From the IMG/VR virus record IMGVR_UViG_3300038306_000202, positions 1-23,766 of that record: a stretch of DNA of 23,766 bases. One strand, 5' to 3'. Position 1 is the first letter of the stretch, and each line of letters opens with the position of its first letter. The notes beneath the pieces are model-generated. The model made no database searches. It saw nothing but the letters and a program-made list of their open reading frames with translations, and was not told the origin of the DNA. The stretch comes from a virus. Positions 2,977 to 20,218 of the stretch are shown here, piece by piece. Made by a program: the position numbers and the translations under genes.

Positions 2977-4779
2977 TTATTTAGCCCTTTCTTTAGGGGA
3001 TCTTTTGTTAAAATGTTCTTTCTCGCTCATATCCTCAAGTAACTTGATCAATTCATAGTCACAACCTGATTCAATTGCTAAGGACTTCATAGCATCATAG
3101 TCCAGAGATTCTGCTGCTGGAGCGGGAGGAATACCCTCCTCACCCGGCATAGGAGGCTCGCCCATAGGGGGACCGCCCATAGGAGGTGCGCCACCCATCA
3201 TAGGATCGGCAGTAGCCATCATCGGTCCAAACACCGGATCCTTTTGATTTTCCTCAAGACCCTTCTTGGCATCTTTAATCTCAGCATCCGACATCTGATA
3301 GTAGTCTTTATAGATTTGTTCAATTGGGAATATACCAAGGCCCTTCACGGCTTGAACCACTCTAGCCTTCTGCTCGTCAGTGTCCAACATTCTCTTAAGA
3401 GCCATGTCAGATGGAGCAGGTAACTTAATCTTTAACTTATCAATAAGCGTAGTTGGGAAACCCTTAAGCATTAAGTGTCTCTTAGCCAACGTTTCTAATC
3501 CAAGTTCAATGGACTTTTGAATTCTAGTAATAACTCTAGAAAACTTTACATCTAATTGAGATAGGTTAGCTTTGCGCTCAGGGGCTTGATCCTTTTCAAC
3601 AATGTAATCCTTTGGAATCTTAAGAGCAGCTAACAACTTATCTCTGAAGTATTTAACATCATCAACTTCACCGAGATTCTCTGCACCTGGGAGAGTTTCA
3701 ATCTTGGTTCCAGTTCCCTTTCCGTTGACCGCAATGTAGAAATCCTCATCAGCGGCTAACGCATTAAAGTTCTCTTCAATGTTGCCTGTTTGGGCGTTGT
3801 AGCTCTTACGCTTCTTAAACTTATCCATCTGCTTCTTGATATGCATTTCAGCCTTAGAAGCAGGCAGTGATCCGGTATCAATATAGAAGATACGACGCTC
3901 AGGAGCACGAACTAGACGATAGATAAGCATTGCATCTTCCATCATCTTAAGGCTCTTGTAGACTACTCTGCCAGCCGCTGCTATCGACTTACCGTAAGGA
4001 TAGTGAGTAGGGTCTGAGGTATGCAACCTTAGATGAATGATCTGCCCAGGATCCAAAGGAATCATCTGAGCGTCATCAAGTGCTGGGCCAATAGAACCGT
4101 AGGTTGTCCAATCGTTCTTCTTAGGAATCTCCTGCAAGAATTGCTTTAGATAACCAAACTCGTCTTCAACCCTAAAGATATAACTTGGGTTAAGAATCTT
4201 AATCCGCTGGATACCACGCTTGATGTTGTTGAGATCAACAATGGTTTCAACGAAGATATCACCATACTTAACAACATTTCTTGAAATGTCCCAAAGGTAT
4301 CGATTCATGTTTGTTTGTTCAAACATGTTCTGAACCTCTTGCTTACTCATTTCATCGTCAGTTACAATATCCCAAGCTGTGCCATCAAGATTCTCTTGAG
4401 TACACTCATCACTATAAATATCAAAGGCAGATGAGATCTCAGGATATCCATCCATATCCTCATACTCCTTATATCTCTTCTTTCTATCATATTCTACTGC
4501 GGGTAGAATTGGATAGAACGTCCTCTTATGACCCATCTCAGATGGGATTTTAATAACATCTTGAGCCTGTACGGTATCGCCTGCGAGAGTCTTAGGCTTA
4601 TCAACCAACCGTTTGGAGATGGGATCCTGGTATTGATCTTCGGTATGATCCTCAACCTCACGGGCAAAGAATTTCTTAAAGAACCGGCCAATCAGACCAA
4701 AAGGTTGATTATAAGGTTTTTGAGGGCTTCCAAATTGGGTGTAGCCTTCACCCCCTTCGTTTAGTTTCTTAGCAGCCAT
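2977..4779 (-). CDS. 20: Portal vertex protein (T4 gp20 family)
   Basis: The dodecameric portal forms the head-tail connector vertex and the channel through which terminase pumps DNA. The protein has 600 residues (T4 gp20 has 524). Family signatures seen include YPYGKSI at 260-266 followed by a long helix with KMMEDAMLIYRLVRAPERR (about 278-296) leading into IFYIDTG, and a tunnel-loop-like GKGTGTKIETLPG at 353-365 followed by DDVKYFRDKLLAALKIPKDY. The extra length is mainly a C-terminal tail: a Met/Pro/Gly-rich linker (about 518-555) and a charged end. The gene overlaps the 3' end of the terminase gene by 19 bp, which implies co-transcription and translational coupling. The identification is solid from family knowledge; the function of the tail is unknown. 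Confidence 0.93.
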   Translation of the reverse strand: MAAKKLNEGGEGYTQFGSPQKPYNQPFGLIGRFFKKFFAREVEDHTEDQYQDPISKRLVDKPKTLAGDTVQAQDVIKIPSEMGHKRTFYPILPAVEYDRKKRYKEYEDMDGYPEISSAFDIYSDECTQENLDGTAWDIVTDDEMSKQEVQNMFEQTNMNRYLWDISRNVVKYGDIFVETIVDLNNIKRGIQRIKILNPSYIFRVEDEFGYLKQFLQEIPKKNDWTTYGSIGPALDDAQMIPLDPGQIIHLRLHTSDPTHYPYGKSIAAAGRVVYKSLKMMEDAMLIYRLVRAPERRIFYIDTGSLPASKAEMHIKKQMDKFKKRKSYNAQTGNIEENFNALAADEDFYIAVNGKGTGTKIETLPGAENLGEVDDVKYFRDKLLAALKIPKDYIVEKDQAPERKANLSQLDVKFSRVITRIQKSIELGLETLAKRHLMLKGFPTTLIDKLKIKLPAPSDMALKRMLDTDEQKARVVQAVKGLGIFPIEQIYKDYYQMSDAEIKDAKKGLEENQKDPVFGPMMATADPMMGGAPPMGGPPMGEPPMPGEEGIPPAPAAESLDYDAMKSLAIESGCDYELIKLLEDMSEKEHFNKRSPKERAK

Positions 4780-6332
4780 GTAATGTTCTCTTCTGTTAAA
4801 TCATCCGTAGATGTCTTCACTTTATATGTATAAGCGTTACTGATAGCTGGAGGGATATAAGTGTCCTCTTCTCCCCTTTCTATGAAAGCATTCCCTCTTA
4901 AGTTATTAAAAACGTTAATAGCGGTAGCAAACGACATAATTAAATCGTCATGACAGTTAGTATCGGGCTTTACCTTACCCGTGTCAGAATCTATAATGAA
5001 TGTTAAAAGTTCATTAATGAGTCTCTCCGAGTTAATTAAAACTCTACCTGACCTTATATTATGCTCAAGATCGGCTAATAAAGTCTCTTTATTTTTCTGA
5101 GTAATCAAAATTCCGATCTCTCGCTTGTCATCCATCACCAAGTTCTCATACTCTAATTCATCCCTTAGAAAGTAAATTAGATTGTTGCCAATGCCATTTC
5201 TCTCAGGACATACGAAGGCAGTATTGTATAGGCGACCCTCATCTGATATGATTTTAGCAAATTCATTGATAGGTGTTCTATTCGAGTAAAACTCAGCCAC
5301 CTGTTTACCATTATAGATGTCAATGATATGAAATGCAGAATAATCTCTCTCACGGCCAATTGAGGGGTCGGCAGCTAAGACATATTCATGGTTAGGTTTA
5401 GGATCCTCCCAGATACGCATCCTATTGTTGTACTTAATCCAATAATCGTTGTTACAATTTTCTTTCAAATTACGAAGAATCTCTCCCTCGATATAAGTCT
5501 CGCCAGTACCTAGGAAGCTAGCCTCATACTCTTGTAACCATTCCTTGTAGCTATGCTTTCTTCTGGTCTGGTGCTCCCACTTATCAACATCGATGGGTGG
5601 GCTACATGACTCCATCTCCTCATACAACCATTCAAAGCCCTTATGTCTTTTATACTCTGGGTGCTGTTGCCATTTAATATTAATTGGATGAAATCCATTA
5701 TCACCCTCCATGGCCTGTGTATACATTTTATGAAACCAGTTACCAATACCGTTAACTGTAGATAAACACACCACACGACCCCCTGTAGACGTTGTCGGAC
5801 CAACAGCCGCCCAAATGGTATCAATATGCTCAATAAAAGCTGCCTCATCAAGAATTAACAACGAAGCGGATATTGAACGACCTGATTGCTTACCTGATGC
5901 TTTAGACTGAATTGATGACCCATTTTCAAAAGAAAGAGTGTGGTCGTTGTCTCTGGTGGTCTTAGGCTTCATCCAGAACGGTAATTCTTCATACATGATC
6001 TTTATACGAGAAATAACTTCCTTTGCTTCAGCATCACCTTTAGATAAGATAGCAACTCTTTTGTTTGTACCAAATATGCAAAAGTGTAATGCATACGCAG
6101 CCATTAAAGTTGTGCAACCTGCCTGTCTGAACTTCCTTAGGATGGTTAAGCGATAATCTTGGAATTCATCCAGGATACGAGATTGAAACGGGTAAAGTTT
6201 AAAGTTGACCATTCCACGCATTGGATGCACAACTTTGATGTAGTTGTTTGTAAAATATTCACAGTCACGAGAACATTTTTTAAATTCTTCTGAAATTCTT
6301 TCGAGGTCTTCGCTATTATTATTAGAGTTCAT
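4761..6332 (-). CDS. 17: Terminase large subunit (T4 gp17 family)
   Basis: The DNA-packaging motor ATPase and headful nuclease. The 523-residue protein has the two expected domains. ATPase: the P-loop region is RKFRQAGCTT (66-75), where the usual GKT lysine is replaced (GCT) and basic residues precede the loop, a deviant Walker A type known in terminases; Walker B is SLLILDEAAF with D162 and E163; the coupling motif is CLSTVNG (189-195). Nuclease (RNase H fold): D322 in AADPSIGRERDYSAFHIID, E377 in CPERNGIGN and D462/D463 in HDDLIMSF match the three acidic sites of gp17. It lies directly upstream of the portal gene, the usual order. Its start codon overlaps the oppositely oriented start of the glycosyltransferase gene. 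No small terminase subunit is visible in the window. Confidence 0.95.
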   Translation of the reverse strand: MNSNNNSEDLERISEEFKKCSRDCEYFTNNYIKVVHPMRGMVNFKLYPFQSRILDEFQDYRLTILRKFRQAGCTTLMAAYALHFCIFGTNKRVAILSKGDAEAKEVISRIKIMYEELPFWMKPKTTRDNDHTLSFENGSSIQSKASGKQSGRSISASLLILDEAAFIEHIDTIWAAVGPTTSTGGRVVCLSTVNGIGNWFHKMYTQAMEGDNGFHPINIKWQQHPEYKRHKGFEWLYEEMESCSPPIDVDKWEHQTRRKHSYKEWLQEYEASFLGTGETYIEGEILRNLKENCNNDYWIKYNNRMRIWEDPKPNHEYVLAADPSIGRERDYSAFHIIDIYNGKQVAEFYSNRTPINEFAKIISDEGRLYNTAFVCPERNGIGNNLIYFLRDELEYENLVMDDKREIGILITQKNKETLLADLEHNIRSGRVLINSERLINELLTFIIDSDTGKVKPDTNCHDDLIMSFATAINVFNNLRGNAFIERGEEDTYIPPAISNAYTYKVKTSTDDLTEENITWLLRN

Positions 6333-7436: not shown

Positions 7437-8147
7437 GTGATGATAAAAAAACTATTATGTGTTGCTTTGCTAGCAACGTCGTTACACGCTCACGGAGGTC
7501 AGTATCGCGGTCCTGGCGACGTAGTCCCTCCTGGTCCTGGTGGTGGTAATACTGGTCGGCCAAGTGGCCCCACTACGGGTGGTCCTGCTGGACCTAGCGC
7601 AGGAAGACCTTCAGGGCCTGCTACAGGTGGTCCTCAGGGGCCTGCGACTGGTGGCCCTACCGGACCAAGCGCACCTGGAAGAGGCCCTCAGACTGGCGGC
7701 AGGGGATCCAGACTAGGACTTGATCTTACTCAATGGTCGTTCTGGTGGGAGTTTAATAAGGATCCCTTTATCCACCTAAAGAATGCCGTTCACAGTAAAG
7801 GCCCTCAAACTGGATCGGATGACTTCTACTTGGGTAGCACGCGAAAGTCTGCACATAACAGCCTAGCTCCGACTAAGGAAGATAAGTTGGATATCCTTGC
7901 AACCCTTCGTAGGGCAATGAAGTCCACTAACAACAAAGATATCATCTCTGCTTGCATGATTGCTATGGCAAAAGTTGGAATGGATCACCCAGAGTTTAAG
8001 CTAAAGGATGTATTCAAACCTTACTTGAAATCTCTTAACCAAGAAGTTAGAGAGACTGCTGCACTAGCACTTGGGATTGCCGCTCAAACCGAATCGGATG
8101 AGCTTGATATCCTAATCGCATTGGCACTTGGCAAAGAAGTAAAGTAA
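7437..8147 (+). CDS. Exported Gly/Pro-rich protein with C-terminal HEAT-like helices
   Basis: A 236-residue protein. Residues 2-18 (MIKKLLCVALLATSLHA) form a Sec signal peptide. Residues 20-90 are a low-complexity Gly/Pro/Thr/Ser stretch with collagen-like GGPxGPxTGGP repeats. A conserved-looking block LDLTQWSFWWEFNKDPFIHL (95-114) and TGSDDFYLG (125-133) precedes HEAT-like helix pairs, with NQEVRETAALALGIA at 201-215. I associate the WWEFNKDPF plus SDDF arrangement with secreted HEAT-repeat proteins of Planctomycetota, which would suggest host acquisition; this rests on recall only. The start is GTG 7437 (fits the TATATA-N5 rule) or ATG 7440. A signal peptide on a phage protein means action in the envelope or outside, not packaging. 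Function unknown. Confidence 0.65.
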   Translation: MMIKKLLCVALLATSLHAHGGQYRGPGDVVPPGPGGGNTGRPSGPTTGGPAGPSAGRPSGPATGGPQGPATGGPTGPSAPGRGPQTGGRGSRLGLDLTQWSFWWEFNKDPFIHLKNAVHSKGPQTGSDDFYLGSTRKSAHNSLAPTKEDKLDILATLRRAMKSTNNKDIISACMIAMAKVGMDHPEFKLKDVFKPYLKSLNQEVRETAALALGIAAQTESDELDILIALALGKEVK

Positions 8148-8253: not shown

Positions 8254-8814
8254 TTAAGTTTTCTTACGACGCGGCCCGGTCAAATCGCGGAACTTGCGAT
8301 TTCCGCCATCGATACCTTCTTTTGAAAGTTTATATCTAACAGAGTTTTTGAAGTTACGAGCACTGTTTCCACCCGTATTGCCCATGTCCTCAGGTTGATT
8401 ACCTGTTGAGGGCGTTTCTATAGCCGAGTTACGCATCTGGTTTGGGGTCCCTAAGAGGTCCTTCATCTTTTTGTTTTCTCTTTCCTTACGTTTAGCAATC
8501 TTCGCTAAAGCCGAGGCAAACATGTCCTTGCCCTTACGTTTAGCAATCTGCGCTCGACGGACCTCTAAGGAAGGTATGTTATATCCTTTTGAAGGAGCTT
8601 CTACTGCTGTTGGGGCTTTCGACACATCAGGTCTCACACCACCACCACCAAGCGCACCCGCTGCCATTCCTGCTGCTAAAGCCCCACCCATTAGCTTCCG
8701 CTTAAGACCTTCATCTAGGTCGCTACCAGATAGACTCTCTAATACTTTAATTGCAAGCTGTTCTCGCGCACGCCTAACGTTTTTAGATTTTTCTTTAAAA
8801 CTAGTAAAGGTCAT
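8254..8814 (-). CDS. Basic protein with prohead-targeting-like N-terminus
   Basis: A 186-residue, Lys/Arg-rich protein. Its first 13 residues, MTFTSFKEKSKNV, nearly match MSFTSFKEQFKNV of the protein encoded at 15462-16289, and the first 40 or so bases plus promoter are almost identical in DNA. SGSDLDEGLKRK near residue 33 and FKNSVRYKLSKEG near the C-terminus repeat the motif theme (FKN, hydrophobic positions, then E-G) found in the other two basic proteins. An Ala/Gly-rich segment (about 43-60) could be a short hydrophobic helix. By analogy with the T4 capsid-targeting sequence and its cleavage by gp21 at hydrophobic-x-E|G/A/S, I infer a processed internal head protein; this is untested. 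It lies alone on the minus strand between plus-strand genes. Confidence 0.6.
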   Translation of the reverse strand: MTFTSFKEKSKNVRRAREQLAIKVLESLSGSDLDEGLKRKLMGGALAAGMAAGALGGGGVRPDVSKAPTAVEAPSKGYNIPSLEVRRAQIAKRKGKDMFASALAKIAKRKERENKKMKDLLGTPNQMRNSAIETPSTGNQPEDMGNTGGNSARNFKNSVRYKLSKEGIDGGNRKFRDLTGPRRKKT

Positions 8815-8928: not shown

Positions 8929-10236
8929 ATGCGTAACAAACTACCAAACATCCCAGAAGCTAACATCCCCAATGCTAATGGCTCCAATCTTGAGTCAATC
9001 GCTGCCTTTGATCCTGTGGTCAAACCAGAGACAGTGATCGATATTAAAGCAGATAGCATAACTGCCAAACCTCAGTTGAAGAACTGGAATCCTATAGCTA
9101 ATGCCATGGCTGATGCTCAGGGCATAGAGGTTGGGTCTTGGTCTTGGATGTTGGGTGGCATCGCGCCTTACTCTGGTTCATCTGGCTCACAATCGAGCTA
9201 CGGCTGGAGGCACACCCATAAGCTAACCCCGCACTACATCCGTTCAGTGTTGGCAAACTATGGTCACCGTCGCTCTTATTATACAAACGCACCGTTCAGG
9301 CAGTTTGGCTATGAGGCTGCTGGTAGACCCCATGGATGGACTCCTGAGTCCCCTGGTGATATGCCAAATGGAACTGCCGTCTACATGGCAAGCAGAGGCC
9401 CTGTCACAGTTACGGGTCCTGACGCAGAGCACTTTTGGCTCACACCATTGTTTGCTCTTATTGATGACCCAAACCCAATCCTGGTTGAGACTGGTCTGGG
9501 CAACAAGCTACCTTCAAACGTGGTGGCTAAATGGCTTGCGACAATGCTCGTATCTTCTGCGGTTGGCATGGTTCGAGATCAAAACGGAGATGGCGTTCAG
9601 CCTTACCCGTGGGCTTATGGTGACCGTGCTACAAGCAGACTTTTGCACACAATCACTGAAGGACAAAAGCGAGGCTGCTTACTTAACGAAGATGTTCCAA
9701 CCGCCGCATTCTTTCTCCGTGACATCGTGTTGGCATTCTATGAGACGAGTCCCGGCATTCACTCCTTTGGCGCACCTCGTGAAGGTAGGTTCCCTGTAGG
9801 ACTGTTCAACGGCCTCGATTGGATTATGCCTGCCTGCTACGACGCAGCAAAACATCTCGAAACAATCAACGGATTGAGCGATTGGTCAAACCGTTACATG
9901 GCTCTCGTATCTAGGTGGTCACAGTGGATGGTGGACATGAACGAGACTTTGCCTTTGGAGTGCTTCCGCGCTGACCGAGTGTTCGTTGACAATGCAAACA
10001 ATGCATTTATTCAAAGCGATGGCCCTGTTGCCTCAATCAAGAAACTCATTCGAGAAGAAGACTTCCTCTTCTCATTCGATTTCATGCCATGGGCTTTCCG
10101 CGCTGTGGACATTGCTGCGACCGTCACTGGTAATTCGAAACTAAAGGATTCAAGAGATGCGATCATCAGCCAATACGGGACAGATCCAAACGCACGTATT
10201 TGGATGGTTGGAGCGGATGGTGAGTATGTAGGATAA
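8929..10236 (+). CDS. Unknown 435-residue Trp/His-rich protein
   Basis: I do not recognise this family. The protein starts with an Asn/Pro/Ala-rich segment (NKLPNIPEANIPNANGSN) and continues as a compact aromatic-rich domain (WSWMLGGIAPYSG, YGWRHTHKLTPHYIRSVL, FGYEAAGRPHGWTPESPGD, WFEDVFLRD-like helices). The alternation of helices with Trp, His and Asp suggests an alpha/alpha fold such as those of some carbohydrate-active enzymes, but no catalytic motif is clear. ATG 8929 is chosen because it follows TATATA by five bases; an in-frame GTG at 8836 would add 31 basic residues across the promoter. It is six bases upstream of the G8-domain gene and looks more GC-rich than the minus-strand structural genes, so the pair was probably acquired together and may act on the same substrate. 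Confidence 0.6.
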   Translation: MRNKLPNIPEANIPNANGSNLESIAAFDPVVKPETVIDIKADSITAKPQLKNWNPIANAMADAQGIEVGSWSWMLGGIAPYSGSSGSQSSYGWRHTHKLTPHYIRSVLANYGHRRSYYTNAPFRQFGYEAAGRPHGWTPESPGDMPNGTAVYMASRGPVTVTGPDAEHFWLTPLFALIDDPNPILVETGLGNKLPSNVVAKWLATMLVSSAVGMVRDQNGDGVQPYPWAYGDRATSRLLHTITEGQKRGCLLNEDVPTAAFFLRDIVLAFYETSPGIHSFGAPREGRFPVGLFNGLDWIMPACYDAAKHLETINGLSDWSNRYMALVSRWSQWMVDMNETLPLECFRADRVFVDNANNAFIQSDGPVASIKKLIREEDFLFSFDFMPWAFRAVDIAATVTGNSKLKDSRDAIISQYGTDPNARIWMVGADGEYVG

Positions 10237-10242: not shown

Positions 10243-12954
10243 ATGATGAATATGCAAAAAATAATTGCGGCTTTAGTTTTTCTGCTCGTCTCAGTTTCAC
10301 TTGTAGGACAGATTATTACCACTCCAGGGACTTACCCTAAGAAGAACTGGGACAGTCCCTGGGTTTGGGCGAACAACATTCCTCCTGTATTGGGAGACGA
10401 TGTTATCATCCGCCAGGGTCAGGTTATTAATCTGACCAGTACTACTGTCCCCTTAGGGCACGTAGACGTATATGGAACCTTGCAGGCCAACTACCTGTTT
10501 GACTTCCATCTTATTGCTGACAGTATCACTATCCATGTGGGCGGTGCTATTCTTATCGGTAGCGTAGACAACCCATACAGGATGAGCGCATCCATCACCT
10601 TGACTGGTACCACTTCCGCTCACTTGCCACGGACCCAGGACAACGGACTGTCTAATGATGGTATTAGCCGAGGCATCCGATGTATGGGCCTGCTGGCACT
10701 CTACGGAGCAACTCCCGGTGTTACCAAGACCAAGATAGCGGCTCACAGTGCCGATGGAGCTACCTCGTTCACTCTGGCCGACAACGTGAATTGGAAGGCT
10801 GGAGATACCATTGCCATCTCCACCACCGACTTCTACGGCGAGCAAGAGACGGAGATCCTCACCCTGGCAGCAGACTCGGTTGGCAACCAAATTATGACAA
10901 CCACGCCCTGCGCCAAGGGTCGCTGGGGCTTGCTTCAATACCCTACAGACTGGGGCATGTCTTTGACTCCGGGTCAGTTCTCCAAGACAAGTGACCTTAC
11001 ACCCACAGTTCTAGATGAGCGTGCAGAGGTGGTGAACCTGTCTCGAAACATTGTTATCCAGGGAGCAGACGATGCCGACTGGGCTGACGATGGCTTTGGC
11101 GCACATGTGATAATCAGTGGCGACATGAGCCGGGCATCAATTGCCGGAGTCGAGATGCGCCGAGTAGGACAGCGACAGGCTATGGGTCGATACCCGATCC
11201 ATTGGCATATGCGCTCATGGTCTGGCAGTACCTTCAAGGGCAACGCATCCCACGACTTCATGATTGAAAGCTCGGTGTGGGATAGCCAGAACCGCGCAGT
11301 GACAATCCACGGCACCAACGGCGTTGTCCTCGGTAATGTCTACGCAGTAGACATTAAGGGTCACGCCTTCTTCCTTGAGGACGGATCGGAGCAGCACAAC
11401 ACCATTGTGGGATGCGTAGCAATGAAGGTGCGCGATCCAGGTGTTGCACATCGCATCAAGAATCACGACCGTAATGCTTCCGGTTTCTGGCTTACCAACC
11501 CAGCCAACTACATCTACCGTAATTCGGCTAGCGATTGTGAGGGGAGGGGCCTCTGGAATAGTTTCGCGGAGCAGTGTTTCGGGGAGTCCAGTCAGGTTCC
11601 TCTTGAGCCTAGGTTTATTGTTGTCGAAAAGTTTGATGACAACACCGGACATGGCTGCGGCCAAAACGGCATTGCGACCGATGACATTGTAATCAATGAG
11701 GCAGGTAATACTACCACTCAACGATACCTTGAGCGGTGGAATACCGCACAGGAGTTCGTCTTCCACATGCGACGTAACATTGTCTGGAAGAATAGCAACA
11801 ACGGTTACCAGAACCGAGTCATGTCTGCCCAATACCTGGGCTGGACGGGTGCAGACAATAACGGAAAAGATTTTAACGGAAGCACCTTCAAGGCATACAT
11901 GGAGGGAACGCTGCTGGTTGGGCAGTCTCTAAACAATGCCACGGCTTTTACTAACCCGTTACGGAACGGCATGAGTAGCTACCACTACCTACTGGACACG
12001 GTAAGTATCTCGGCAATCAACTACCCTTACCAGCCACCTATGATGGTTAATGGCGGTCAGTTTGTTCGGGGCGGTGGAGTTATTGACGGCTCGGACAACT
12101 ACATTGACGGCATTGGCCTCGGGGGCATCCGCAACCCTGGTTGGCACCTAGTGAACAGTTTCCCTGGGTTCCTAACTCCCCCACCATACTTCGATGGCTT
12201 CCCGTTGCAGATACCTAACGGATCATATCGCCACTGGTCAACTGACAGCGCGATCTGGGATCCCCATGGATACTGGGCTGCTCCAGGCAGCTACTTAGTG
12301 GTGAATAATCCGTTCTACACCTACGAGCTTACTGATGCCGCTAGCCTATTCCCTGAAGTTGGGTTTGTGGGCACGATGCAGACGTTCTATGGAATCCGCA
12401 ATATCACGGTTGACAACTACCCTGCAATCAATAGGAACACTTTGATTACGCTTAGGGCCTCTAGACTTGACTCCAACCTACAAGAGGTGAGTCATAATTT
12501 AATTGGCGACCCTGCCCTAACTACTTGGTTGCCCGGTATGCGTCACTTCGCATTCGCTAAGGACGGAACCTACGCACTCCAGTTTCCTACCATTCCTGCT
12601 CCATGCGATAAAATCCAGATTGGTCTTAGCAATGCTTACCGGGCAGATGATGGGTTCCTGATAAGTATCCCCTGGGATGGCAACACCCCCGTGAACGGCC
12701 GCATCGAATCAGGTTACGGAGTAAACATCAGCACCGGGGTTGCACAGGGGCTACTGAGGTTCCTGGTTAACGGCACCTCGCTCAACGACGTACAGAACGA
12801 TGCAACGGGCATCACGATGTGGCAAGACACTGCCAATGACGTAGTGTGGATCAATTATGTTGGCGGCTTGACATGGAATATCACCCCCTGGAGTGGTGGT
12901 CCTCTTTCAGATACTAACATTGACCGAGAGCAGAGAATTATTCTTGAGAAATAG
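10243..12954 (+). CDS. Secreted G8-domain/beta-helix protein, CEMIP/TMEM2-like
   Basis: A 903-residue protein with a signal peptide (about 1-23, MQKIIAALVFLLVSVSLVGQ region). Residues about 34-150 form a G8 domain: WDSPWVWANNIPPVLGDDVI, then VDVYGTLQ and ITIHVGGAILIG. From about 290 a right-handed parallel beta-helix follows with the hallmark segments of CEMIP (KIAA1199), TMEM2 and PKHD1L1: YPIHWH (317-322), NRAVTIHGTNG (350-360), GHAFFLEDGSEQHNT (373-387) and ASGFWLTNPANYIYRNSASD (412-431). CEMIP and TMEM2 take part in hyaluronan breakdown, so a polysaccharide-binding or -cleaving role is a fair inference. AGGA nine bases upstream supports ATG 10243; ATG 10252 is an alternative. The signal peptide argues for export from the infected cell rather than assembly as a tail spike. 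GC content is higher than in the structural genes, suggesting transfer. Confidence 0.8.
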   Translation: MMNMQKIIAALVFLLVSVSLVGQIITTPGTYPKKNWDSPWVWANNIPPVLGDDVIIRQGQVINLTSTTVPLGHVDVYGTLQANYLFDFHLIADSITIHVGGAILIGSVDNPYRMSASITLTGTTSAHLPRTQDNGLSNDGISRGIRCMGLLALYGATPGVTKTKIAAHSADGATSFTLADNVNWKAGDTIAISTTDFYGEQETEILTLAADSVGNQIMTTTPCAKGRWGLLQYPTDWGMSLTPGQFSKTSDLTPTVLDERAEVVNLSRNIVIQGADDADWADDGFGAHVIISGDMSRASIAGVEMRRVGQRQAMGRYPIHWHMRSWSGSTFKGNASHDFMIESSVWDSQNRAVTIHGTNGVVLGNVYAVDIKGHAFFLEDGSEQHNTIVGCVAMKVRDPGVAHRIKNHDRNASGFWLTNPANYIYRNSASDCEGRGLWNSFAEQCFGESSQVPLEPRFIVVEKFDDNTGHGCGQNGIATDDIVINEAGNTTTQRYLERWNTAQEFVFHMRRNIVWKNSNNGYQNRVMSAQYLGWTGADNNGKDFNGSTFKAYMEGTLLVGQSLNNATAFTNPLRNGMSSYHYLLDTVSISAINYPYQPPMMVNGGQFVRGGGVIDGSDNYIDGIGLGGIRNPGWHLVNSFPGFLTPPPYFDGFPLQIPNGSYRHWSTDSAIWDPHGYWAAPGSYLVVNNPFYTYELTDAASLFPEVGFVGTMQTFYGIRNITVDNYPAINRNTLITLRASRLDSNLQEVSHNLIGDPALTTWLPGMRHFAFAKDGTYALQFPTIPAPCDKIQIGLSNAYRADDGFLISIPWDGNTPVNGRIESGYGVNISTGVAQGLLRFLVNGTSLNDVQNDATGITMWQDTANDVVWINYVGGLTWNITPWSGGPLSDTNIDREQRIILEK

Positions 12955-12957
12955 AAA

Positions 12958-13338
12958 ATGAAACTACTACTACTATTACTTCCCCTATTGTTCCTCGCTA
13001 GTTGTGACCTAGGAAAGAGCAATAACACAACTATACCAAATGTGTCAGAGCCGGAAGGTTACGCTAATCTACAAGACATCGCTGGGTATATTGGTTTGAA
13101 CCAGACTGGGGATGTCGAACTTTGGGTGTACTCCCATAGCGGTAATTATGGAGACTATACCGCAATTGTAACAGGGGCATCTCATGCTGAATTAGGATCT
13201 GTCACCTACGCTGGGTATGGTAGATTCAGGATCGAACGCCTCGACCATACGATTGATTATTGGAATACTACGCTCGCGATTGGTAACGTTATTGTATTAG
13301 ATGCCGGGCTGCTCGGAATTTTTTATATACAGATTTAA
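12958..13338 (+). CDS. Small lipoprotein
   Basis: A 126-residue protein with a textbook lipoprotein signal: MKLLLLLLPLLFLASC, lipobox L-A-S-C with lipidated Cys16. Asp at +2 (CDLG) is the residue that retains lipoproteins in the inner membrane of E. coli; whether this host follows that rule is unknown. The mature part is about 110 residues, Gly/Tyr-rich and probably all beta. It begins three bases after the stop of the G8 gene, so the two are co-transcribed. Known phage lipoproteins act in superinfection exclusion, receptor masking or lysis (o-spanin); nothing in the sequence separates these, and the mature size is larger than a typical o-spanin. Confidence 0.7.
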   Translation: MKLLLLLLPLLFLASCDLGKSNNTTIPNVSEPEGYANLQDIAGYIGLNQTGDVELWVYSHSGNYGDYTAIVTGASHAELGSVTYAGYGRFRIERLDHTIDYWNTTLAIGNVIVLDAGLLGIFYIQI

Positions 13339-13901: not shown

Positions 13902-15437
13902 TCACTTCGAGCCAAGACCCGGACGATCACCCTTTTTAGGATCCTTCAGGACACCATCGTAAACCATCTTCATTGATTTATCAAATAATTTCCTTGAAAC
14001 ATCTTTAGATGCCCTACGAGGTGATCTGTCTCTATTGATGTGTTTAGCCACCGTGTCGAGGTCGTTGCTATCACTCGGATCTTTAAGTGAATCCTTATGC
14101 TTCTGGAACTGCATACCAGTCTCAATATGGTCTTTAGTGTCTCCGAATCTGGTAGAGGTATTGGCCGTTTTCTTCTTTATTCTTTTGATCTGGTCGTAGT
14201 AGTCTTGATCAGTTTTATCCTTACCTAAATGAGTGACAACTCTCATTCTCTTAGGGTCTCCAACAGACCCTGCACCGCGCCTTCCACGCTTTACTTCTCC
14301 TCTCCTCAACTTAGCCATGAAGTTACCAACCCTACCTCCGGTCATCATGGGGTTCTCACCACTTGAGGACCCTTCATTCAAGTAGTTTAAAATAACGTTC
14401 TTAAATTTATATTCGAAAGATTCTCTATTTTTAGTATATTCTCTTCTAAATCTATCCTGCGCGGCCCTATCGACTTGATGGGCATGAGGGCGAGTATCAC
14501 GCCCGCCTTCCCTATTGAGCATATCCTCTTTTCCTCTATTTTGTACTTGACGATAGCCAACCTTACTCATAATTCTTTTAGCTTGTTTTCTTTTAGCTTG
14601 AATCTTTTCTGGTGATGGGTCTTCACTATACATTTTAGTCATCGCCCTTCCAACTCTAGCTCCCGTTTGTGTTGGACTGTCTCCAAAGGAAGGTCCCTCA
14701 TTCAAGTAGTTTAAAATAGAGTTTCTAAACTGTTCTGTAAAGTGCCCTGCACCCCAACCTCCTCCTACCATTTTTCCACCTTTTTGTGCCTTTTTAAGTT
14801 GTAACTTTGCTCCATGCCTTCTAAGTCTATTTATGATTTGTTGCGCTTGATTAAACCTAGCTTGCCTTGGAGTTTGTTTCTCTCCAGGATAATCTTCCTG
14901 ACCGTATGCTGCCTTATACCCTTCTGTATCTTCGTCAGCTAAGTAAGCGGCTTTCATAGCTTCAGCTTGTTCCGGTCCATATTTTTTAATTAAGAATCTA
15001 CCCATCTTAGTTGATCTTAAGTCTGCTTCAATGTCTGTCCTAGGATCTTCAAGGGTGCCTGTAGAAAACTCAACGCCTTTCTCTTTTGCATACTTTTCGG
15101 CATAGTCTTTCATTGGCCTTTTTACTCCACCTTCATCCTCCGATCCAGATGAACCCTCATAACCGTAGTGATAACCCTTCTTACCCGAAGAATCAATTTG
15201 TTTACGAATATGTGCCTGTTGTTTTTGTCCAGACTCAGATTCTGGATCTATAACTCCGGTGGGACCATGCTCTTCAGGATATAAAGGGGAATTAGACTTA
15301 TTAAACAGTTTTTTCTTTTGTAAGGGTTTACCGTCTCCAGATTCTTCAGCCGATTTCATCGCTGCCGTCCAAGCACCCTCATCCAAAGCAATTAAGAAAG
15401 CCTCTAGTAATTCTTCTTTTAAGTCTTCATTACCCAT
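13902..15437 (-). CDS. Modular basic protein with three L-x-E-G processing-like sites
   Basis: A 511-residue, strongly basic protein of low complexity. Two near-identical modules stand out: FTEQFRNSILNYLNEG (233-248) and FEYKFKNVILNYLNEG (341-356), each followed by a similar stretch with TGxRVG and a Met. The N-terminus LLEAFLIALDEGAW (11-23) is a third related helix ending in L-D-E-G. T4 prohead protease gp21 cuts after Glu in hydrophobic-x-E|G/A/S, so cleavage after E20, E247 and E355 would give three basic products. I infer an internal head polyprotein carrying repeated capsid-targeting helices; the repeats are seen, the processing is a hypothesis. The start ATG 15437 follows TATATA by five bases. 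It lies downstream of the related gene at 15462-16289. Confidence 0.6.
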   Translation of the reverse strand: MGNEDLKEELLEAFLIALDEGAWTAAMKSAEESGDGKPLQKKKLFNKSNSPLYPEEHGPTGVIDPESESGQKQQAHIRKQIDSSGKKGYHYGYEGSSGSEDEGGVKRPMKDYAEKYAKEKGVEFSTGTLEDPRTDIEADLRSTKMGRFLIKKYGPEQAEAMKAAYLADEDTEGYKAAYGQEDYPGEKQTPRQARFNQAQQIINRLRRHGAKLQLKKAQKGGKMVGGGWGAGHFTEQFRNSILNYLNEGPSFGDSPTQTGARVGRAMTKMYSEDPSPEKIQAKRKQAKRIMSKVGYRQVQNRGKEDMLNREGGRDTRPHAHQVDRAAQDRFRREYTKNRESFEYKFKNVILNYLNEGSSSGENPMMTGGRVGNFMAKLRRGEVKRGRRGAGSVGDPKRMRVVTHLGKDKTDQDYYDQIKRIKKKTANTSTRFGDTKDHIETGMQFQKHKDSLKDPSDSNDLDTVAKHINRDRSPRRASKDVSRKLFDKSMKMVYDGVLKDPKKGDRPGLGSK

Positions 15438-16270
15438 GCAAATATATATCCCGGTATAAAATTAAGGTTTAATAACTTTTTTAGTTTTAGGATCCGAACG
15501 GCTTCTTCTTTTAAACTTACCTTTAATAGTCTTTCCTTTGGAGTCTCTCTGATACTTAGAAGCATCACTCCTATCTACTGTAACTGTGCCATCATCATTT
15601 TTTGTTACCCGTGTAGTTTTTCCTGCGTCGTGTCTAGAATTCACATCGCGGGTGTTGCCGGTTTCGTCATCATCGCCATCAGGGTGATAGCCCCTTTTCT
15701 TAGCAGCTTTCATAACGCCTTCTGCCGTCCACTCATTCAAGTAGTTTAAAATAACGTTCTTGAATTGTTCTTCATATGCCCTGCCTTTGGGCTTTATATA
15801 GTCTAGTGCTGGATCCTGCGAAAGTCTCCTAGAATAAGGTCTACGAAGCTTTGCGCCCTCCTTGTTGATTTGATCAGGCTTTACAATCGAATCTCTATCC
15901 GGTGATTCGCCTCGCCATCCGGTGCGAAAGCCGCGCACGTTCACCTGGAAATCTTTTGGTGATTTATCTACAGCATCAAACCCTTTCTTTTTAAGTCTTG
16001 TCGGTCTAGGACCCTTTTCCCCAGGAACTCCGAAAGAACTTTTAATTTTATCTCCCAAAGTATCTCTGCCTTTTCTAACTTTAGCAACACGATTATTACG
16101 GACCTTACTTAATTTATTTATACTTTGTCTGGCGACCTTATCTCGCGGCTTCGAATACCTGGGATCCAATTCTCCTCGATCACTATTCGTATAATCAGTA
16201 GACTTCTGTAATCTAGCCTTATAAGCCTCAGGACTTAAATATTCTAAGATAACGTTCTTGAATTGTTCTT
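14373..16270 (-). repeat. Four DNA copies of the helix-motif coding segment
   Basis: Near-identical segments of about 35 bp lie at 14373-14408, 14698-14732, 15733-15770 and (more diverged) 16235-16270. They share AAGTAGTTTAAAATA and AACGTTCTT cores and encode the F-K-N-V-I-L-N-Y-L-N-E motif. Conservation at the DNA level suggests recombination between copies. Confidence 0.75.
15443..15448 (-). promoter_or_regulatory. Late-type promoter, TATATA-N5-ATG
   Basis: On the minus strand TATATA is followed by TTTGC and the ATG at 15437. No Shine-Dalgarno sequence is present. Confidence 0.5.
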
Positions 16271-16289
16271 TAAAACTAGTAAAGCTCAT
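15462..16289 (-). CDS. Basic protein with duplicated FKEQFKNVILxYL helix
   Basis: A 275-residue, Lys/Arg-rich protein. The N-terminus MSFTSFKEQFKNVILEYLS and an internal copy YEEQFKNVILNYLNEW (172-187) are the same motif found in the genes at 13902-15437 and 8254-8814. The sequence after the internal copy (WTAEGVMKAAKKRG) resembles the start of the 511-residue neighbour (WTAAMKSAEESG), so modules appear to have been shuffled between genes. The N-terminal placement and FxEF-like core recall the T4 capsid-targeting sequence of internal proteins. The mature part is basic and probably disordered, as expected for a DNA-packed internal protein. The start ATG follows TATATA by five bases, and this is the first gene transcribed leftward from the iteron junction. 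Confidence 0.6.
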   Translation of the reverse strand: MSFTSFKEQFKNVILEYLSPEAYKARLQKSTDYTNSDRGELDPRYSKPRDKVARQSINKLSKVRNNRVAKVRKGRDTLGDKIKSSFGVPGEKGPRPTRLKKKGFDAVDKSPKDFQVNVRGFRTGWRGESPDRDSIVKPDQINKEGAKLRRPYSRRLSQDPALDYIKPKGRAYEEQFKNVILNYLNEWTAEGVMKAAKKRGYHPDGDDDETGNTRDVNSRHDAGKTTRVTKNDDGTVTVDRSDASKYQRDSKGKTIKGKFKRRSRSDPKTKKVIKP

Positions 16290-16300: not shown

Positions 16301-16615
16301 GGGCGATGCAACGGGACTCCTAACCTTTTGAATATATTATATTTTTTTATAGGGTAACAGTAATGAAATAGGGGACCCTAAAGGTTTTCTGATAATAATA
16401 TAATTGAGATCTAATTGAGATCTAATTGAGATCTAATTGAGATCTAATTGAGATCTAATTGAGATCTAATTGAGATCTAATTGAGATCTAATTGAGATCT
16501 AATAAGATTTTAGTAGGGTTAACAAATGTGAAATACTACATGGGGAGCGGGACCGATGGGTTCCCTTTTGCAAAACGTAATATTCTACGGTGGCATCATA
16601 CTAACCTAAGCCACT
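16301..16615. other. Non-coding divergent junction
   Basis: No credible gene. Contents in order: an AT-rich stretch with TATTATATTTTTTTA (about 16333-16351), the nine iterons (16402-16500), then a possible weak hairpin GGGACC/GGGTTCCC followed by TTTT (16551-16573) that could end a rightward transcript. The last part leads into the first promoter cassette. Confidence 0.6.
16402..16500. repeat. Nine perfect 11-bp iterons, candidate origin
   Basis: AATTGAGATCT is repeated nine times without a single change, followed by a partial copy. Each unit contains the palindrome AGATCT and one GATC. The 11-bp period is close to one helical turn, so every unit faces nearly the same side of the DNA, as in replication-initiator iterons or cooperative repressor arrays. 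The array lies between the leftward late-type genes and the rightward early-type genes, next to an AT-rich stretch (16331-16352). I see no initiator gene nearby. Confidence 0.85.
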
Positions 16616-16700
16616 GCCATACAAAGAGTTGTGTTGGTTGGAGGAGCACGGGGCCGTCGCCCTAAGTCCTTTGTTCACAAGCACTTACATCAATTGAAAG
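16616..16700 (+). repeat. Structured promoter cassette, copy 1 (most diverged)
   Basis: It contains CCATACAAAGAGTTGTG, a GC-rich middle, TAAGTCCTTTGTTCACAAGC ending in ACTTAC, and ATTGAAAG. The middle GC hairpin is degenerate compared with the other copies, but the flanking arms are retained. The extended -10 box lies 40 bp downstream. Confidence 0.75.
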
Positions 16701-16736
16701 ATTTCTAAAGATTGCATCCCCTTTCTTCTGCGAGTT

Positions 16737-16751
16737 TGGTATAATTGGGGC
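16737..16751 (+). promoter_or_regulatory. Extended -10 promoter, leaderless, cassette 1
   Basis: TGGTATAAT (16737-16745) and TGGGGC, then ATG at 16752. With the last T of the -10 box at -7, the A of ATG is +1. No consensus -35 box is seen. Confidence 0.7.
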
Positions 16752-16898
16752 ATGAGTGAGACTTCAGACATCATCTACAGCAACTGCTGCCTATCGTCCC
16801 TACTTGGGGTCACCAGCGGCGACATCCTGCGAGGGTGCCCCGAATGCCGACCCCATGCCGAGGTCGATGCCACGTATGAAGGCATGGACAGGGAGTAA
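16752..16898 (+). CDS. Cys-rich microprotein, MSETS family, copy 1
   Basis: A 48-residue protein (MSETSDIIYSNCCLSSLLGV...). It is a paralogue of the 64-residue protein at 21762-21956: both begin MSETSxIIYSNCC and have a second cysteine pair (CPEC here, CLEC there) followed by H-A-E. The CC...CxxC layout suggests a small zinc site. Its start is set by the promoter: ATG lies exactly six bases after TATAAT with no Shine-Dalgarno sequence. This copy is shorter and lacks the acidic C-terminus of its relative, so it may be a decaying or diverged version. Function unknown; early expression suggests a host-directed role. Confidence 0.6.
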   Translation: MSETSDIIYSNCCLSSLLGVTSGDILRGCPECRPHAEVDATYEGMDRE

Positions 16899-16902
16899 GG
16901 CC

Positions 16903-17019
16903 ATGAGCGACCAATACAAGCCTGATACAGACAGCCTTACCAACATGGACCAGATCGGCGGTTGTGTCATGATCGTTGTTGTGATTTGGGGTGGATTTCT
17001 ACTGATGGGTATGATATAA
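16903..17019 (+). CDS. Single-span membrane microprotein
   Basis: A 38-residue protein with a polar N-terminus (MSDQYKPDTDSLTNMDQIGG) and one transmembrane helix (CVMIVVVIWGGFLLMGMI). It starts four bases after the previous stop, with AAGG just upstream. Its TAA overlaps the next ATG (TAATG), so it is part of a translationally coupled chain. Similar single-span microproteins end two other modules in this region (18034 and 20696). Confidence 0.5.
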   Translation: MSDQYKPDTDSLTNMDQIGGCVMIVVVIWGGFLLMGMI

Positions 17020-17150
17020 TGCAGTGCGCAGAATGCAGAACAACAGCCCCGAGTGAGTTCTCGGGAATTAATCCCTACTACTGTGATCACTGTCATTTCG
17101 AATTAATCGAAAAAGATCCAAGCAATCCTCTAATCAGTTGGTATAATTAA
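17019..17150 (+). CDS. Zinc-ribbon microprotein
   Basis: A 43-residue protein with two CxxC knuckles: CAEC at 3-6 and CDHC at 22-25, a typical zinc ribbon. Translation is coupled to the upstream gene through TAATG. The last codons (W-Y-N-stop) are written by the promoter of the next gene, TGGTATAATTAA, so coding and promoter sequence are superimposed here. Small zinc ribbons of phages often bind nucleic acid or host polymerase; that is family knowledge and not shown for this one. Confidence 0.6.
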   Translation: MQCAECRTTAPSEFSGINPYYCDHCHFELIEKDPSNPLISWYN

Positions 17151-17154
17151 CAGC
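17139..17154 (+). promoter_or_regulatory. Extended -10 promoter nested in the end of the upstream gene
   Basis: TGGTATAAT (17139-17147), seven bases (TAACAGC), ATG at 17155. The -10 box overlaps the last codons and stop of the zinc-ribbon gene. It has no structured cassette in front. Confidence 0.6.
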
Positions 17155-17592
17155 ATGAACCACTTCAACGACAACTACCGCCAAGCAAAAGTCCACGCAT
17201 CACGCCGTGGGTTCCAGTATACCCTGCCAAATGGTTACCGTCTTTCGGTGATGTTCGACCATGGGAACTACTGCGACAATCGCTCCAGTGGGTCGTTCCC
17301 TTTAGAGAGGCCGATGAGTAGCAGCAACTTCGAAGTTGCAGTGTTCACCCCAGATGATAAGTTCCTCGATCTAGTCGATGAAGTTGATGATGAGGATGGC
17401 ACTCGTCGCGTTGAGCAGGTGATCGGTTGGGTTCCTGCTTGGACTTTGCCAAATCTTATTCAAAGGATTAAGTATTTTCCTGAGTATCGCCTGAACTTGC
17501 ATGATGAGCTAAGGGTATACGCTCTAGCATTTGGCAAGTTCTGCGAGAAAGCGAAGGATGGGCAAGACCCTAGGACAATCACGGACATCTAA
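17155..17592 (+). CDS. Hypothetical early protein, 145 residues
   Basis: A soluble 145-residue protein; no family recognised. Features: a basic N-terminal helix (RQAKVHASRRG), a beta-rich middle (YTLPNGYRLSVMFDHGNYCDN), an acidic segment DLVDEVDDEDG (about 77-87), and a C-terminal helical part with WVPAWTLPNLIQRI. The promoter embedded in the end of the preceding gene places the start codon one base from the expected transcription start, so the message should be leaderless. It is followed closely by the tandem paralogues at 17597 and 17815. Confidence 0.6.
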   Translation: MNHFNDNYRQAKVHASRRGFQYTLPNGYRLSVMFDHGNYCDNRSSGSFPLERPMSSSNFEVAVFTPDDKFLDLVDEVDDEDGTRRVEQVIGWVPAWTLPNLIQRIKYFPEYRLNLHDELRVYALAFGKFCEKAKDGQDPRTITDI

Positions 17593-17596
17593 GGCT

Positions 17597-17815
17597 ATGC
17601 CATACATTACAACAATCAAAACCATTGAGCGGACAGTTAAATACTGGGTGCCTCAAGAGATCATTGATAAGTCGCACACTAACTGCGGCGACAGTGCATA
17701 CTCTTACATTGTCGAAGCAGATGGAAGAACCCAATGCATTGAAGTAGAGGAGCAAGAAATCGACGAGCGAATCATTCTCCCTCAATTCCCTAAAACTCAA
17801 TATTATTCGGACTAA
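17597..17815 (+). CDS. Tandem paralogue A, MPYIT family
   Basis: A 72-residue protein, about two-thirds identical to its downstream neighbour. Shared blocks: IKTIExTVxYWVPxEII, KSHTNCGDSAY and EQEIDERII-P-FPKTQ. The start is ATG 17597, with AAGG six bases upstream; an in-frame upstream ATG would run through the previous gene. The TAA overlaps the next ATG (TAATG). The two cysteines and the acidic C-terminus do not point to a known fold. Function unknown. Confidence 0.6.
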   Translation: MPYITTIKTIERTVKYWVPQEIIDKSHTNCGDSAYSYIVEADGRTQCIEVEEQEIDERIILPQFPKTQYYSD

Positions 17816-18030
17816 TGGCATACATTACAGTAATCAAAACCATTGAGAAGACAGTGGAATACTGGGTTCCTGATGAAATCATCGAAAAGTCGCACACTAA
17901 TTGCGGGGATAGTGCATACTGTTACCTTGCATCCCTAAAAAGGTATCACCCTCACAAATACATCGACGAGCAAGAAATCGACGAGCGAATCATCGACCCC
18001 GTCTTCCCTAAAACTCAAGTGAAGGACTGA
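17815..18030 (+). CDS. Tandem paralogue B, MAYIT family
   Basis: A 71-residue protein from a tandem duplication of the gene just upstream. The N-terminal 38 residues and the last 20 are strongly conserved; the middle (YLASLKRYHPHKY versus YIVEADGRTQCIEVE) has diverged. A duplicated pair kept in frame with TAATG coupling suggests the two proteins may form a heteromer or have split targets. No family recognised. Confidence 0.6.
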   Translation: MAYITVIKTIEKTVEYWVPDEIIEKSHTNCGDSAYCYLASLKRYHPHKYIDEQEIDERIIDPVFPKTQVKD

Positions 18031-18033
18031 CGC

Positions 18034-18123
18034 ATGGCATACTGGCAAATACTAATCATTGCAATCGTTGGCCCTTTGCTGATCTGTAGGCTTAGAGAGC
18101 CATTGACGAAACGCCATAAGTAA
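18034..18123 (+). CDS. Single-span membrane microprotein
   Basis: A 29-residue protein: MAYWQILIIAIVGPLLIC forms one hydrophobic helix, followed by a basic tail (RLREPLTKRHK), the positive-inside pattern of an inner-membrane peptide. It begins three bases after the previous stop and ends exactly where the next structured cassette begins. Very short, so moderate confidence; support comes from its position in the chain and from similar peptides at 16903 and 20696. Confidence 0.45.
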   Translation: MAYWQILIIAIVGPLLICRLREPLTKRHK

Positions 18124-18210
18124 CCGCCCTGCAAGGAGTTGTGGAGGTTGGCGGGGGGCGGCCCCGCCGCCGTAAGTCCTTTAACCACAAGCACTTACAA
18201 CGATTGAAAG
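18124..18210 (+). repeat. Structured promoter cassette, copy 2
   Basis: CCGCC, CAAGGAGTTG, GGAGG, then hairpin GGCGGGG/CCCCGCC, hairpin GTAAGT/ACTTAC with a 15-base loop containing CCTTT and CCACAA, and GATTGAAAG. One base of the outer first stem (GGAGG for GGCGG) is changed. Confidence 0.85.
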
Positions 18211-18256
18211 AAATAGAAGCACAAACAAAGATTGACCTACATTTTAGCCTCAACTT

Positions 18257-18271
18257 TGCTATAATAACAGC
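18257..18271 (+). promoter_or_regulatory. Extended -10 promoter, leaderless, cassette 2
   Basis: TGCTATAAT (18257-18265), six bases (AACAGC), ATG at 18272. The sequence between hairpins and -10 differs from the other copies, but the -10-to-ATG spacing is unchanged. Confidence 0.7.
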
Positions 18272-19078
18272 ATGACGATTACACTAGAACAACTCGAAGT
18301 CCTTACTCCTGCCGCTTTCTCCGATACCGCTGCTGATCATGTTAGCAAGCGATATAATCACGTTCGCACTGCTGATGTGGTTGAGCACCTGCTTGATGCT
18401 GGTTTCGAGATTACTCACGCTACGCAGCAAAAAACGCAGAAGCGTTCCGAGCACAAGGCATCGAACCAAAAGCATCGCATCCGAATGCGTATGCCCTACA
18501 ACGGGGAAACGTCCGCACGAGTCGGTCAGATCTTCCCTTCGATGGACTTGATCAACTCTGGCGATTGGTCTAGCAATCTCATCTTTGCGTCTGGCCTCTA
18601 CCGTTTCATCTGCGAGAATGGCATGATTGCGCCCTTCGGTAATCAGAACACGACGATCAAAACTCGTCACGACCGTATCGACGAAACCGTGATGCAGAAA
18701 ATCGAGGAAGGAATCCAGGCTGCTCCTGCCCTCTTCGAGTTCGCAGAACAGTGCGCTGATACCCGTATGTCTCCTGATGATGCTAGGAACTTCGCAAAGC
18801 AGGCTGCACGCATTCGCTTCGACATCCCCGAGGAAGATACCGTAGACGATGGCATTGTGACGGGTCTGTTGCAACGTCGTAGGTCTGAGGATGCCGCTGA
18901 TGACCTGTGGGGAGTCTTTAACTCTGTTCAGGAGAATGGCACCCATGGTGGTTTCCGTGCCCCTAGCCTCAACGGTAGGCTTCGCAGGGTCCGTGCTCGT
19001 AGCAACATTGGTGCTGATATGTCTTGGAATCAGAACCTGTGGGAACTTACGCAGGCTTTCGCAAACCGCCTCAACTAA
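18272..19078 (+). CDS. DUF932-family protein
   Basis: A 268-residue protein with the pattern of the DUF932 (phage/plasmid-like) family: KHRIRMRMPY (67-76), a Gly-rich turn, IFPSMDLINSGDWSSNLIF (87-105) and GLYRFICENGM (108-118), followed by a helical half and a C-terminal WNQNLWELTQAFANRL. DUF932 proteins occur in phages, plasmids and defence islands; a biochemical role is not established to my knowledge. The start is fixed by the leaderless promoter at 18257. The gene is a single-gene module, bounded by cassette 2 upstream and cassette 3 downstream. A long reading frame on the opposite strand is a by-product of codon usage. Confidence 0.75.
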   Translation: MTITLEQLEVLTPAAFSDTAADHVSKRYNHVRTADVVEHLLDAGFEITHATQQKTQKRSEHKASNQKHRIRMRMPYNGETSARVGQIFPSMDLINSGDWSSNLIFASGLYRFICENGMIAPFGNQNTTIKTRHDRIDETVMQKIEEGIQAAPALFEFAEQCADTRMSPDDARNFAKQAARIRFDIPEEDTVDDGIVTGLLQRRRSEDAADDLWGVFNSVQENGTHGGFRAPSLNGRLRRVRARSNIGADMSWNQNLWELTQAFANRLN

Positions 19079-19100
19079 GGGGTGTCGCCCTAACCCACTG

Positions 19101-19184
19101 CCCCGCAAGGAGTTGTGGCGGTTGGCGGGGGGCGGCCCCGCCGCCGTAAGTCCTTTAACCACAAGCACTTACGACGATTGAAAG
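19101..19184 (+). repeat. Structured promoter cassette, copy 3
   Basis: CCGC, CAAGGAGTTG, GGCGG, hairpin GGCGGGG/CCCCGCC, hairpin GTAAGT/ACTTAC with CCTTT and CCACAA in its loop, and GATTGAAAG. The outer first stem is one pair shorter than in copy 4. Confidence 0.87.
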
Positions 19185-19230
19185 AAAACAGAGCACAAAA
19201 GAATAATAAGCCCCCCAAACTGGTTCAAGT

Positions 19231-19245
19231 TGGTATAATTGGAGC
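19231..19245 (+). promoter_or_regulatory. Extended -10 promoter, leaderless, cassette 3
   Basis: TGGTATAAT (19231-19239), TGGAGC, ATG at 19246. The preceding 14 bases (ACTGGTTCAAGT) are conserved with cassettes 4 and 5. Confidence 0.7.
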
Positions 19246-19389
19246 ATGTACAGTGAAGCAGAATACATCACGATGCCTTGCAGCCAAGAGATTGCAAACA
19301 TCCTAGAAATCGACAACCCGCACCTCTTCGGTCTGGGTCTTAGCGGTTTCGAAATCTACGAACTACTGGCCGATGGACAAATCGCATGA
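19246..19389 (+). CDS. Acidic microprotein with no Lys or Arg
   Basis: A 47-residue protein (MYSEAEYITMPCSQEIANIL...). It has eight acidic residues and not one Lys or Arg, giving a net charge near -8. The start is set by the leaderless promoter. It ends in ADGQIA, encoded by 21 bases that are repeated exactly at the end of the next gene, and its TGA overlaps the following ATG (ATGA). The charge suggests a protein-interaction or DNA-mimic role, but it is too short and unique for a call. Confidence 0.5.
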   Translation: MYSEAEYITMPCSQEIANILEIDNPHLFGLGLSGFEIYELLADGQIA

Positions 19390-19583
19390 ACGGATCAGAG
19401 AGACAAGCGGAGTATTTTCAATTTCTAACCGAGATACGCGAAAGCGGCATAGCTAATATGTTTGCCGCTGCTCGTTACCTGGAGGATGAGTTTCCAGAAC
19501 TCAGCCGCCAAGAGGCTACCACCGAGTTGTCCGCTTGGATGAAATCTTTCGACAACGAAGCCGCCGATGGACAAATCGCATGA
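19386..19583 (+). CDS. Hypothetical early protein, 65 residues
   Basis: A 65-residue acidic helical protein (RQAEYFQFLTEIRESG, FAAARYLEDEFPELSRQEATTELSAW). The middle resembles a short helix-turn-helix arrangement, but no family is recognised. It begins within an ATGA overlap with the upstream gene and ends with the same ADGQIA tail and the same ATGA coupling to the next gene. The copied tail looks like gene-end duplication that preserved coupling. Confidence 0.55.
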   Translation: MNGSERQAEYFQFLTEIRESGIANMFAAARYLEDEFPELSRQEATTELSAWMKSFDNEAADGQIA

Positions 19584-19927: not shown

Positions 19928-19960
19928 TAGCACCTTACTCGTTACCGATAGAAAAATCTT

Positions 19961-20209: not shown

Positions 20210-20218
20210 GGTAACGCT

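Follow-up and report, generated by a model that had tools for sequence, protein, structure and literature searches.

The DNA analysed here, referred to as the window, is a 23.8-kb virus fragment and not a complete genome (23,766 bases, IMG/VR record IMGVR_UViG_3300038306_000202). It carries an intact open reading frame of 903 residues at 10243–12954, which is predicted to encode an exported G8/CEMIP-type protein and lies in a locus that varies between related phages. The features considered are:

2977–4779, minus strand: T4-type portal protein, phage marker (PF07230, E 2.9e-82)
4761–6332, minus strand: terminase large subunit (TerL), phage marker (Terminase_6N and 6C in Pfam; PHROG 2, E 3.4e-47)
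7440–8147, plus strand: predicted secreted protein by which the variable locus can be recognised in related phages (HEAT_2 at E 2.9e-4, below the cut-off)
8929–10236, plus strand: upstream cassette gene, 435 aa, no signal peptide
10243–12954, plus strand: predicted exported G8/CEMIP beta-helix protein, 903 aa (Pfam, AlphaFold and structural match to TMEM2; alternative start ATG at 10252)
10243–10308, plus strand: predicted signal peptide, about residues 1–22 (MMNMQKIIAALVFLLVSVSLVG; from hydropathy, charge and low pLDDT at residues 1–5 and 15–30)
10366–10737, plus strand: G8 domain, residues 42–165 (PF10162, E 6.6e-16; same place on the DNA in a second search)
11092–11673, plus strand: CEMIP beta-helix core, residues 284–477 (PF24606, E 2e-49)
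12958–13338, plus strand: small lipoprotein downstream of the G8 gene, 126 aa, lipobox LASC

Judged by its portal protein and TerL, the contig is that of a T4-like phage. The nearest reference TerL is only about 32% identical to that of the window, and a TerL search identified 80 related loci in IMG/VR, several of them 98–99% identical. Neither a tRNA nor an Rfam match was found in the window. In nearly all related phages a Glycosyltransferase-2-like gene (PF13712; 6244–7062 in the window) is conserved next to terL, which it overlaps in antisense in many of them.

Past TerL the plus strand holds a variable locus composed of the 7440–8147 gene, the 8929–10236 gene, the G8 gene and the lipoprotein gene. 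The 8929–10236 gene is 94–97% identical between phages although their TerL identity to the window spans 55% (L168) to 99% (L169), and the locus is thus exchanged between phages. Its product gave no match in Pfam, PHROG or NCBIfam and an AlphaFold pLDDT of 30. Weak relatives of this protein (31–33%) occur in one planctomycete genome (L211, L212); since weaker matches were also obtained in the control class, we drew no conclusion about the host from them. Empty sites are present in two related phages, L140/L165 and L166, where the homologue of the 8929–10236 gene directly abuts the lipoprotein gene and the joint reads TAAAAGAGAATG in place of the 2.7-kb G8 gene. The sequences flanking the G8 gene are 95% and 94% identical to L140 at the DNA level and the junctions lie between stop and start codons. 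Insertion or loss of the gene was therefore clean and probably recent, and the G8 gene is an optional accessory (moron-type) cassette consisting of a single gene.

A different G8 protein (E 2.9e-21) is encoded at the same locus in L099, a phage contig with 92% TerL identity, just past the homologue of the 7440–8147 gene. It carries a lipobox; only its start is seen as the contig ends inside the gene. Between this gene and the 7440–8147 homologue, L099 also encodes a repeat-rich, beta-helix-looking protein of 375 aa that has no Pfam match (912–2039 of that contig).

The GC content of the window G8 gene is 0.52 (GC3 0.58), whereas the four structural genes on the left of the window have 0.38–0.44 (GC3 0.26–0.41). 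GC is also raised in genes towards the right end, so that composition was taken as no more than supportive of a foreign origin. The higher GC, together with the fact that the searches of IMG/VR found no close copy of the gene in another contig, might also be expected if the contig were an assembly chimera carrying a bacterial gene. Against this, the two flanking sequences run on without a break in other phages, each junction is intergenic and a G8 gene occupies the corresponding locus in L099, so a chimera appears extremely improbable.

Further repeats and motifs were noticed elsewhere in the window. Six copies of a 100–170-nt repeat, 73–89% identical, occupy gaps between small genes within 16601–23051 (copies at 16601, 18115, 19089, 20333, 21605 and 22884). 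Most copies carry a GC-rich hairpin (GGCGGGGGGCGGCCCCGCCGCC) and have as their last element an extended -10-like box (TTGGTATAAT) placed 6–8 nt ahead of the following ATG, so that transcripts would be leaderless. At 16376–16525, between the divergent gene blocks, an 11-bp unit (ATTGAGATCTA) is repeated in tandem about 9 times. Three proteins (8254–8814, 13902–15437 and 15462–16289, minus strand) share the short motif SFKE.FKNV / FKNVILNYLNEG, which is repeated inside the larger proteins; these might be capsid-targeting tags of internal head proteins.

The 903-aa protein scored 58.8 bits against PF10162 (cut-off 22.9, profile positions 2–123 of 124) and 168.6 bits against PF24606 (cut-off 27.3, profile positions 1–212 of 212). 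By these profile scores, both above the curated cut-offs, it is a member of the G8 and CEMIP beta-helix families. The original prediction had proposed a G8 domain followed by beta-helix signatures of CEMIP/TMEM2 in a phage genome, and the profile searches bear this out: both domains are found beside portal and terminase genes, and the four motifs named (YPIHWH, VTIHGTNG, FFLEDGSEQ and FWLTNPAN) are all present. TMEM2 (8c6i) was the sole match by sequence in the PDB (E 2.4e-30). A PHROG search with the protein returned no match, and a GG-type Pfam domain was not found in it at E values up to 10. The phage protein retains all 42 columns that are invariant in a 34-sequence family alignment, in which the phage row itself is included. 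Among these residues are R316, Y317, H320, H322, R351, H356, H374, E379 and E383, and the gene shows no sign of decay.

At the N-terminus a positive n-region is followed by a 12-residue hydrophobic core with a mean Kyte-Doolittle value of 3.22, the highest of the 15 window proteins scored. A lipobox was not found at this N-terminus. Signal peptides were called here from hydropathy and charge instead of a trained predictor, and on that basis the protein looks Sec-exported, in agreement with the secretion that had been predicted for it. The L099 version is a putative lipoprotein by its lipobox, which suggests that export is common to both phage G8 proteins.

The AlphaFold model, calculated with 34 homologues, has a mean pLDDT of 88.3 and a pTM of 0.88. 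Its confident part begins at about residue 31 and is already beta-helix there. In VIA-align the best structural match is the human TMEM2 ectodomain with Z 34.7 over 760 aligned residues (model residues 30–903), and Foldseek matched the CEMIP/TMEM2-type fold at E 3.5e-36. The alginate epimerases AlgG (Z 22.5) and AlgE (about 22.0) come next, followed by RbmB lyase (about 19) and phage capsule depolymerases (about 18), with Z of about 18–20 overall for these last groups. Due to this gap in Z and the alignment over the whole length we single out TMEM2: the predicted structure is of CEMIP/TMEM2 type, with G8, beta-helix and C-terminal domains continuous as in 8c6i. The G8 fold that the original prediction called for is thus present in the model. 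The shared beta-helix by itself tells little of function, as this fold is common to lyases, hydrolases and epimerases.

Phage tail spikes with the same beta-helix fold (K1 lyase 7w1c, P22 and CBA120) raise the question of whether the protein is a virion tail spike or depolymerase that serves entry, with a hydrophobic N-terminus that does not work as a signal peptide. Curvibacter phage PCA1 points in the same direction, as it encodes, beside a tail fibre gene, a 981-aa protein (L196, 305–3250) that looks like a beta-helix and begins with a weak G8-like stretch (16.6 bits, below the cut-off), possibly representing a separate G8-like tail family. However, the PCA1 protein has neither a signal peptide nor the CEMIP core. 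Apart from the signal-like stretch our model contains no N-terminal particle-binding domain, and the N-terminus looks more like a signal peptide than like a domain that binds the virion. The best whole-length match is TMEM2 and not a trimeric spike, and the lipobox of the L099 version would be of no obvious use to a virion protein, which is assembled in the cytoplasm. Since neither the Sec signal nor the lipobox has an evident virion role and no particle-binding domain is modelled, we judge a tail spike to be quite unlikely.

Relatives of the G8 protein are encoded at 341 candidate loci in bacterial genomes, and by sequence the G8/CEMIP family is widespread in bacteria. The closest cellular relatives are L005 (53–55% identity), L006 (48%), L016 (47%) and G528 (47–50%). 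L005 derives from an uncultured bacterium and L006 and L016 from Planctomycetota; a search of the class of the L006 genome returned the genomes of L005 and L016 and G528 as a fourth relative. The closest relatives are hence exported-looking proteins of one planctomycetal class. In the phylogeny the phage protein grouped with L005, L006 and L016 at 100% SH-aLRT support, placing the phage gene among planctomycetal genes.

We also assessed the gene neighbourhoods of these relatives. L005, L006 and L016 share a polytopic Wzy-like membrane protein beside the G8 gene (26–52% identity), an assignment based on membrane topology and context, with Wzy_C at E 0.018, below the cut-off, in one of them. L006 and L016 additionally have GT4 and GT2 glycosyltransferases and a 2OG-Fe(II) oxygenase nearby, and G528 is accompanied by a Polysacc_synt_3 flippase (E 4.7e-42) and a DUF218 protein. 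Polysaccharide-assembly genes thus lie beside all four closest relatives, a small sample of loci. By the same crude search, most other bacterial homologues had no detectable exopolysaccharide genes beside them; outside the closest clade, glycosyltransferases lay near the G8 gene in L028 and L011 only. Once antisense shadows of the G8 gene were set aside, no general recurrent neighbour was found across all bacterial homologues, and a shared neighbour was seen only in the closest clade. Together with the fold, the neighbourhood of the relatives points to processing of a secreted polysaccharide. It also lends support to the suggestion that such a protein could alter the polysaccharide at the cell surface.

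On balance we consider it probable, if only by a little, that the G8 protein is an accessory enzyme which is exported while the phage infects its host and which depolymerises or modifies the exopolysaccharide of that host. As its nearest bacterial cousins are found among genes for sugar-polymer synthesis, it most likely trims or remodels the coat of the host. The donor of the gene would have been a planctomycete-like bacterium, and the T4-like phage would carry it as a single-gene cassette in the variable locus beside terL. Judging by its signal peptide and by the L099 lipobox, the product would be exported by the host via the Sec pathway during infection. The mature right-handed beta-helix, with the residues of the CEMIP core intact, would then act on the exopolysaccharide of the infected cell itself, either by cutting the polymer or by modifying it in the chain. 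Progeny might thereby be released and diffuse more easily, or polymer that traps progeny might be removed. In line with this, the beta-helix fold is common to enzymes acting on anionic or capsular polysaccharides such as AlgG, AlgE, RbmB lyase and the capsule depolymerases.

Cutting and epimerising are both compatible with the present data. An enzyme that edits and does not cut, such as an AlgG-like exopolysaccharide epimerase or modifier, could alter the surface or receptors and perhaps exclude other phages. After TMEM2, the closest structures are those of AlgG and AlgE, and inside polysaccharide-assembly clusters an enzyme that modifies the polymer is as likely to be encoded as one that cuts it. 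The match to them spans only the beta-helix (about 320 residues, 14% identity), though, a fold shared with lyases and hydrolases, and we hold a purely editing role to be unlikely, if less so than a tail spike.

The hyaluronan metabolism of vertebrates, with which the family had been associated, requires separate consideration. Hyaluronan degradation by mouse TMEM2 depends on the GG domain and on residues within it (PMC10276149), and a list of residues of the TMEM2 GG domain is available (PMC10206443). The phage protein contains no GG/lectin-like domain following G8: the lectin-like GG stretch of TMEM2 (chain residues 128–319) faces only 33 phage residues, 126–158, in the PDB sequence alignment. 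Since this domain is absent, hyaluronan is not the predicted substrate. The kinship with CEMIP/TMEM2 stands, while the emphasis on vertebrate hyaluronan misleads, given the missing domain, the many bacterial relatives and the grouping of the phage gene with planctomycetal genes. Human TMEM2 had no measurable hyaluronidase activity (PMC10206443, PMC10276149), which would fit a non-catalytic carbohydrate-binding surface protein acting as an adhesin or superinfection-exclusion factor. Yet the His, Arg and Glu residues of the core do not vary across phyla, a degree of conservation that a scaffold should not require, and the lectin-like domain of TMEM2, its likely binder, is absent from the phage protein, making mere binding very unlikely. 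The invariant residues are compatible with an exopolysaccharide depolymerase. To our knowledge, neither a catalytic residue nor a mechanism is established anywhere in the G8/CEMIP family.

Among 50,697 reference phages the G8 protein had no match. The PCA1 protein was considered as a second reference-phage case and rejected owing to its sub-threshold G8 score and lack of the CEMIP core. In IMG/VR (P0001 and two alignments) no copy beyond the window was found using short exact peptide patterns and leaving out near-window records, and PF10162 searched over 49 related phage records, mostly fragments, yielded one match. That so few phage copies were found may be due to how the search was done. The literature searched contained no description of a phage G8/CEMIP protein or of a characterised bacterial one. 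We tentatively propose, without regarding it as probable, that this T4-like lineage repeatedly borrows planctomycete-like exopolysaccharide proteins, which the host exports during infection, so that its coat is dismantled or edited from inside and not by the virion.

Known phage depolymerases are mostly parts of the virion. An enzyme exported by the infected cell, from a family unseen in reference phages, would, if true, be a different way of handling the coat of the host. In the phage protein the CEMIP/TMEM2 core is present in a compact form without the lectin domain. As catalysis by this core is disputed in animals, the phage protein and its bacterial cousins offer a simple setting for the question of whether the beta-helix itself is an enzyme.

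With TMEM2 and CEMIP (HYBID, KIAA1199) the phage protein has in common the G8, beta-helix and C-terminal domains as well as the motifs RYP.H.H, VH/IHGTNG and GH.FFLEDG.EQ. It differs in lacking the GG/lectin-like domain that interrupts the helix of the animal proteins, as well as the end of the animal C-terminus and the type II transmembrane anchor of TMEM2. The alginate C5-epimerases AlgG, which is periplasmic and part of alginate synthesis, and AlgE share the right-handed beta-helix, but the likeness is confined to it at 12–14% identity and no G8 match is found. Tail-spike capsule depolymerases (K1 lyase, P22, CBA120) are likewise phage-borne beta-helix proteins with polysaccharide substrates; these, however, are virion proteins without signal peptides, and the CEMIP core was matched by no reference phage protein sequence. 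The bacterial G8/CEMIP_beta-hel proteins (for example Vitreoscilla WP_089418387.1 and the planctomycetal L005, L006 and L016) differ in that the phage gene is an optional cassette with a shorter N-terminal linker, and many bacterial members look like lipoproteins whereas the phage protein has a plain signal peptide. Nevertheless the homology to them extends over the whole length at 33–55% identity, with the same domain order, exported-looking N-termini and the same invariant residues.
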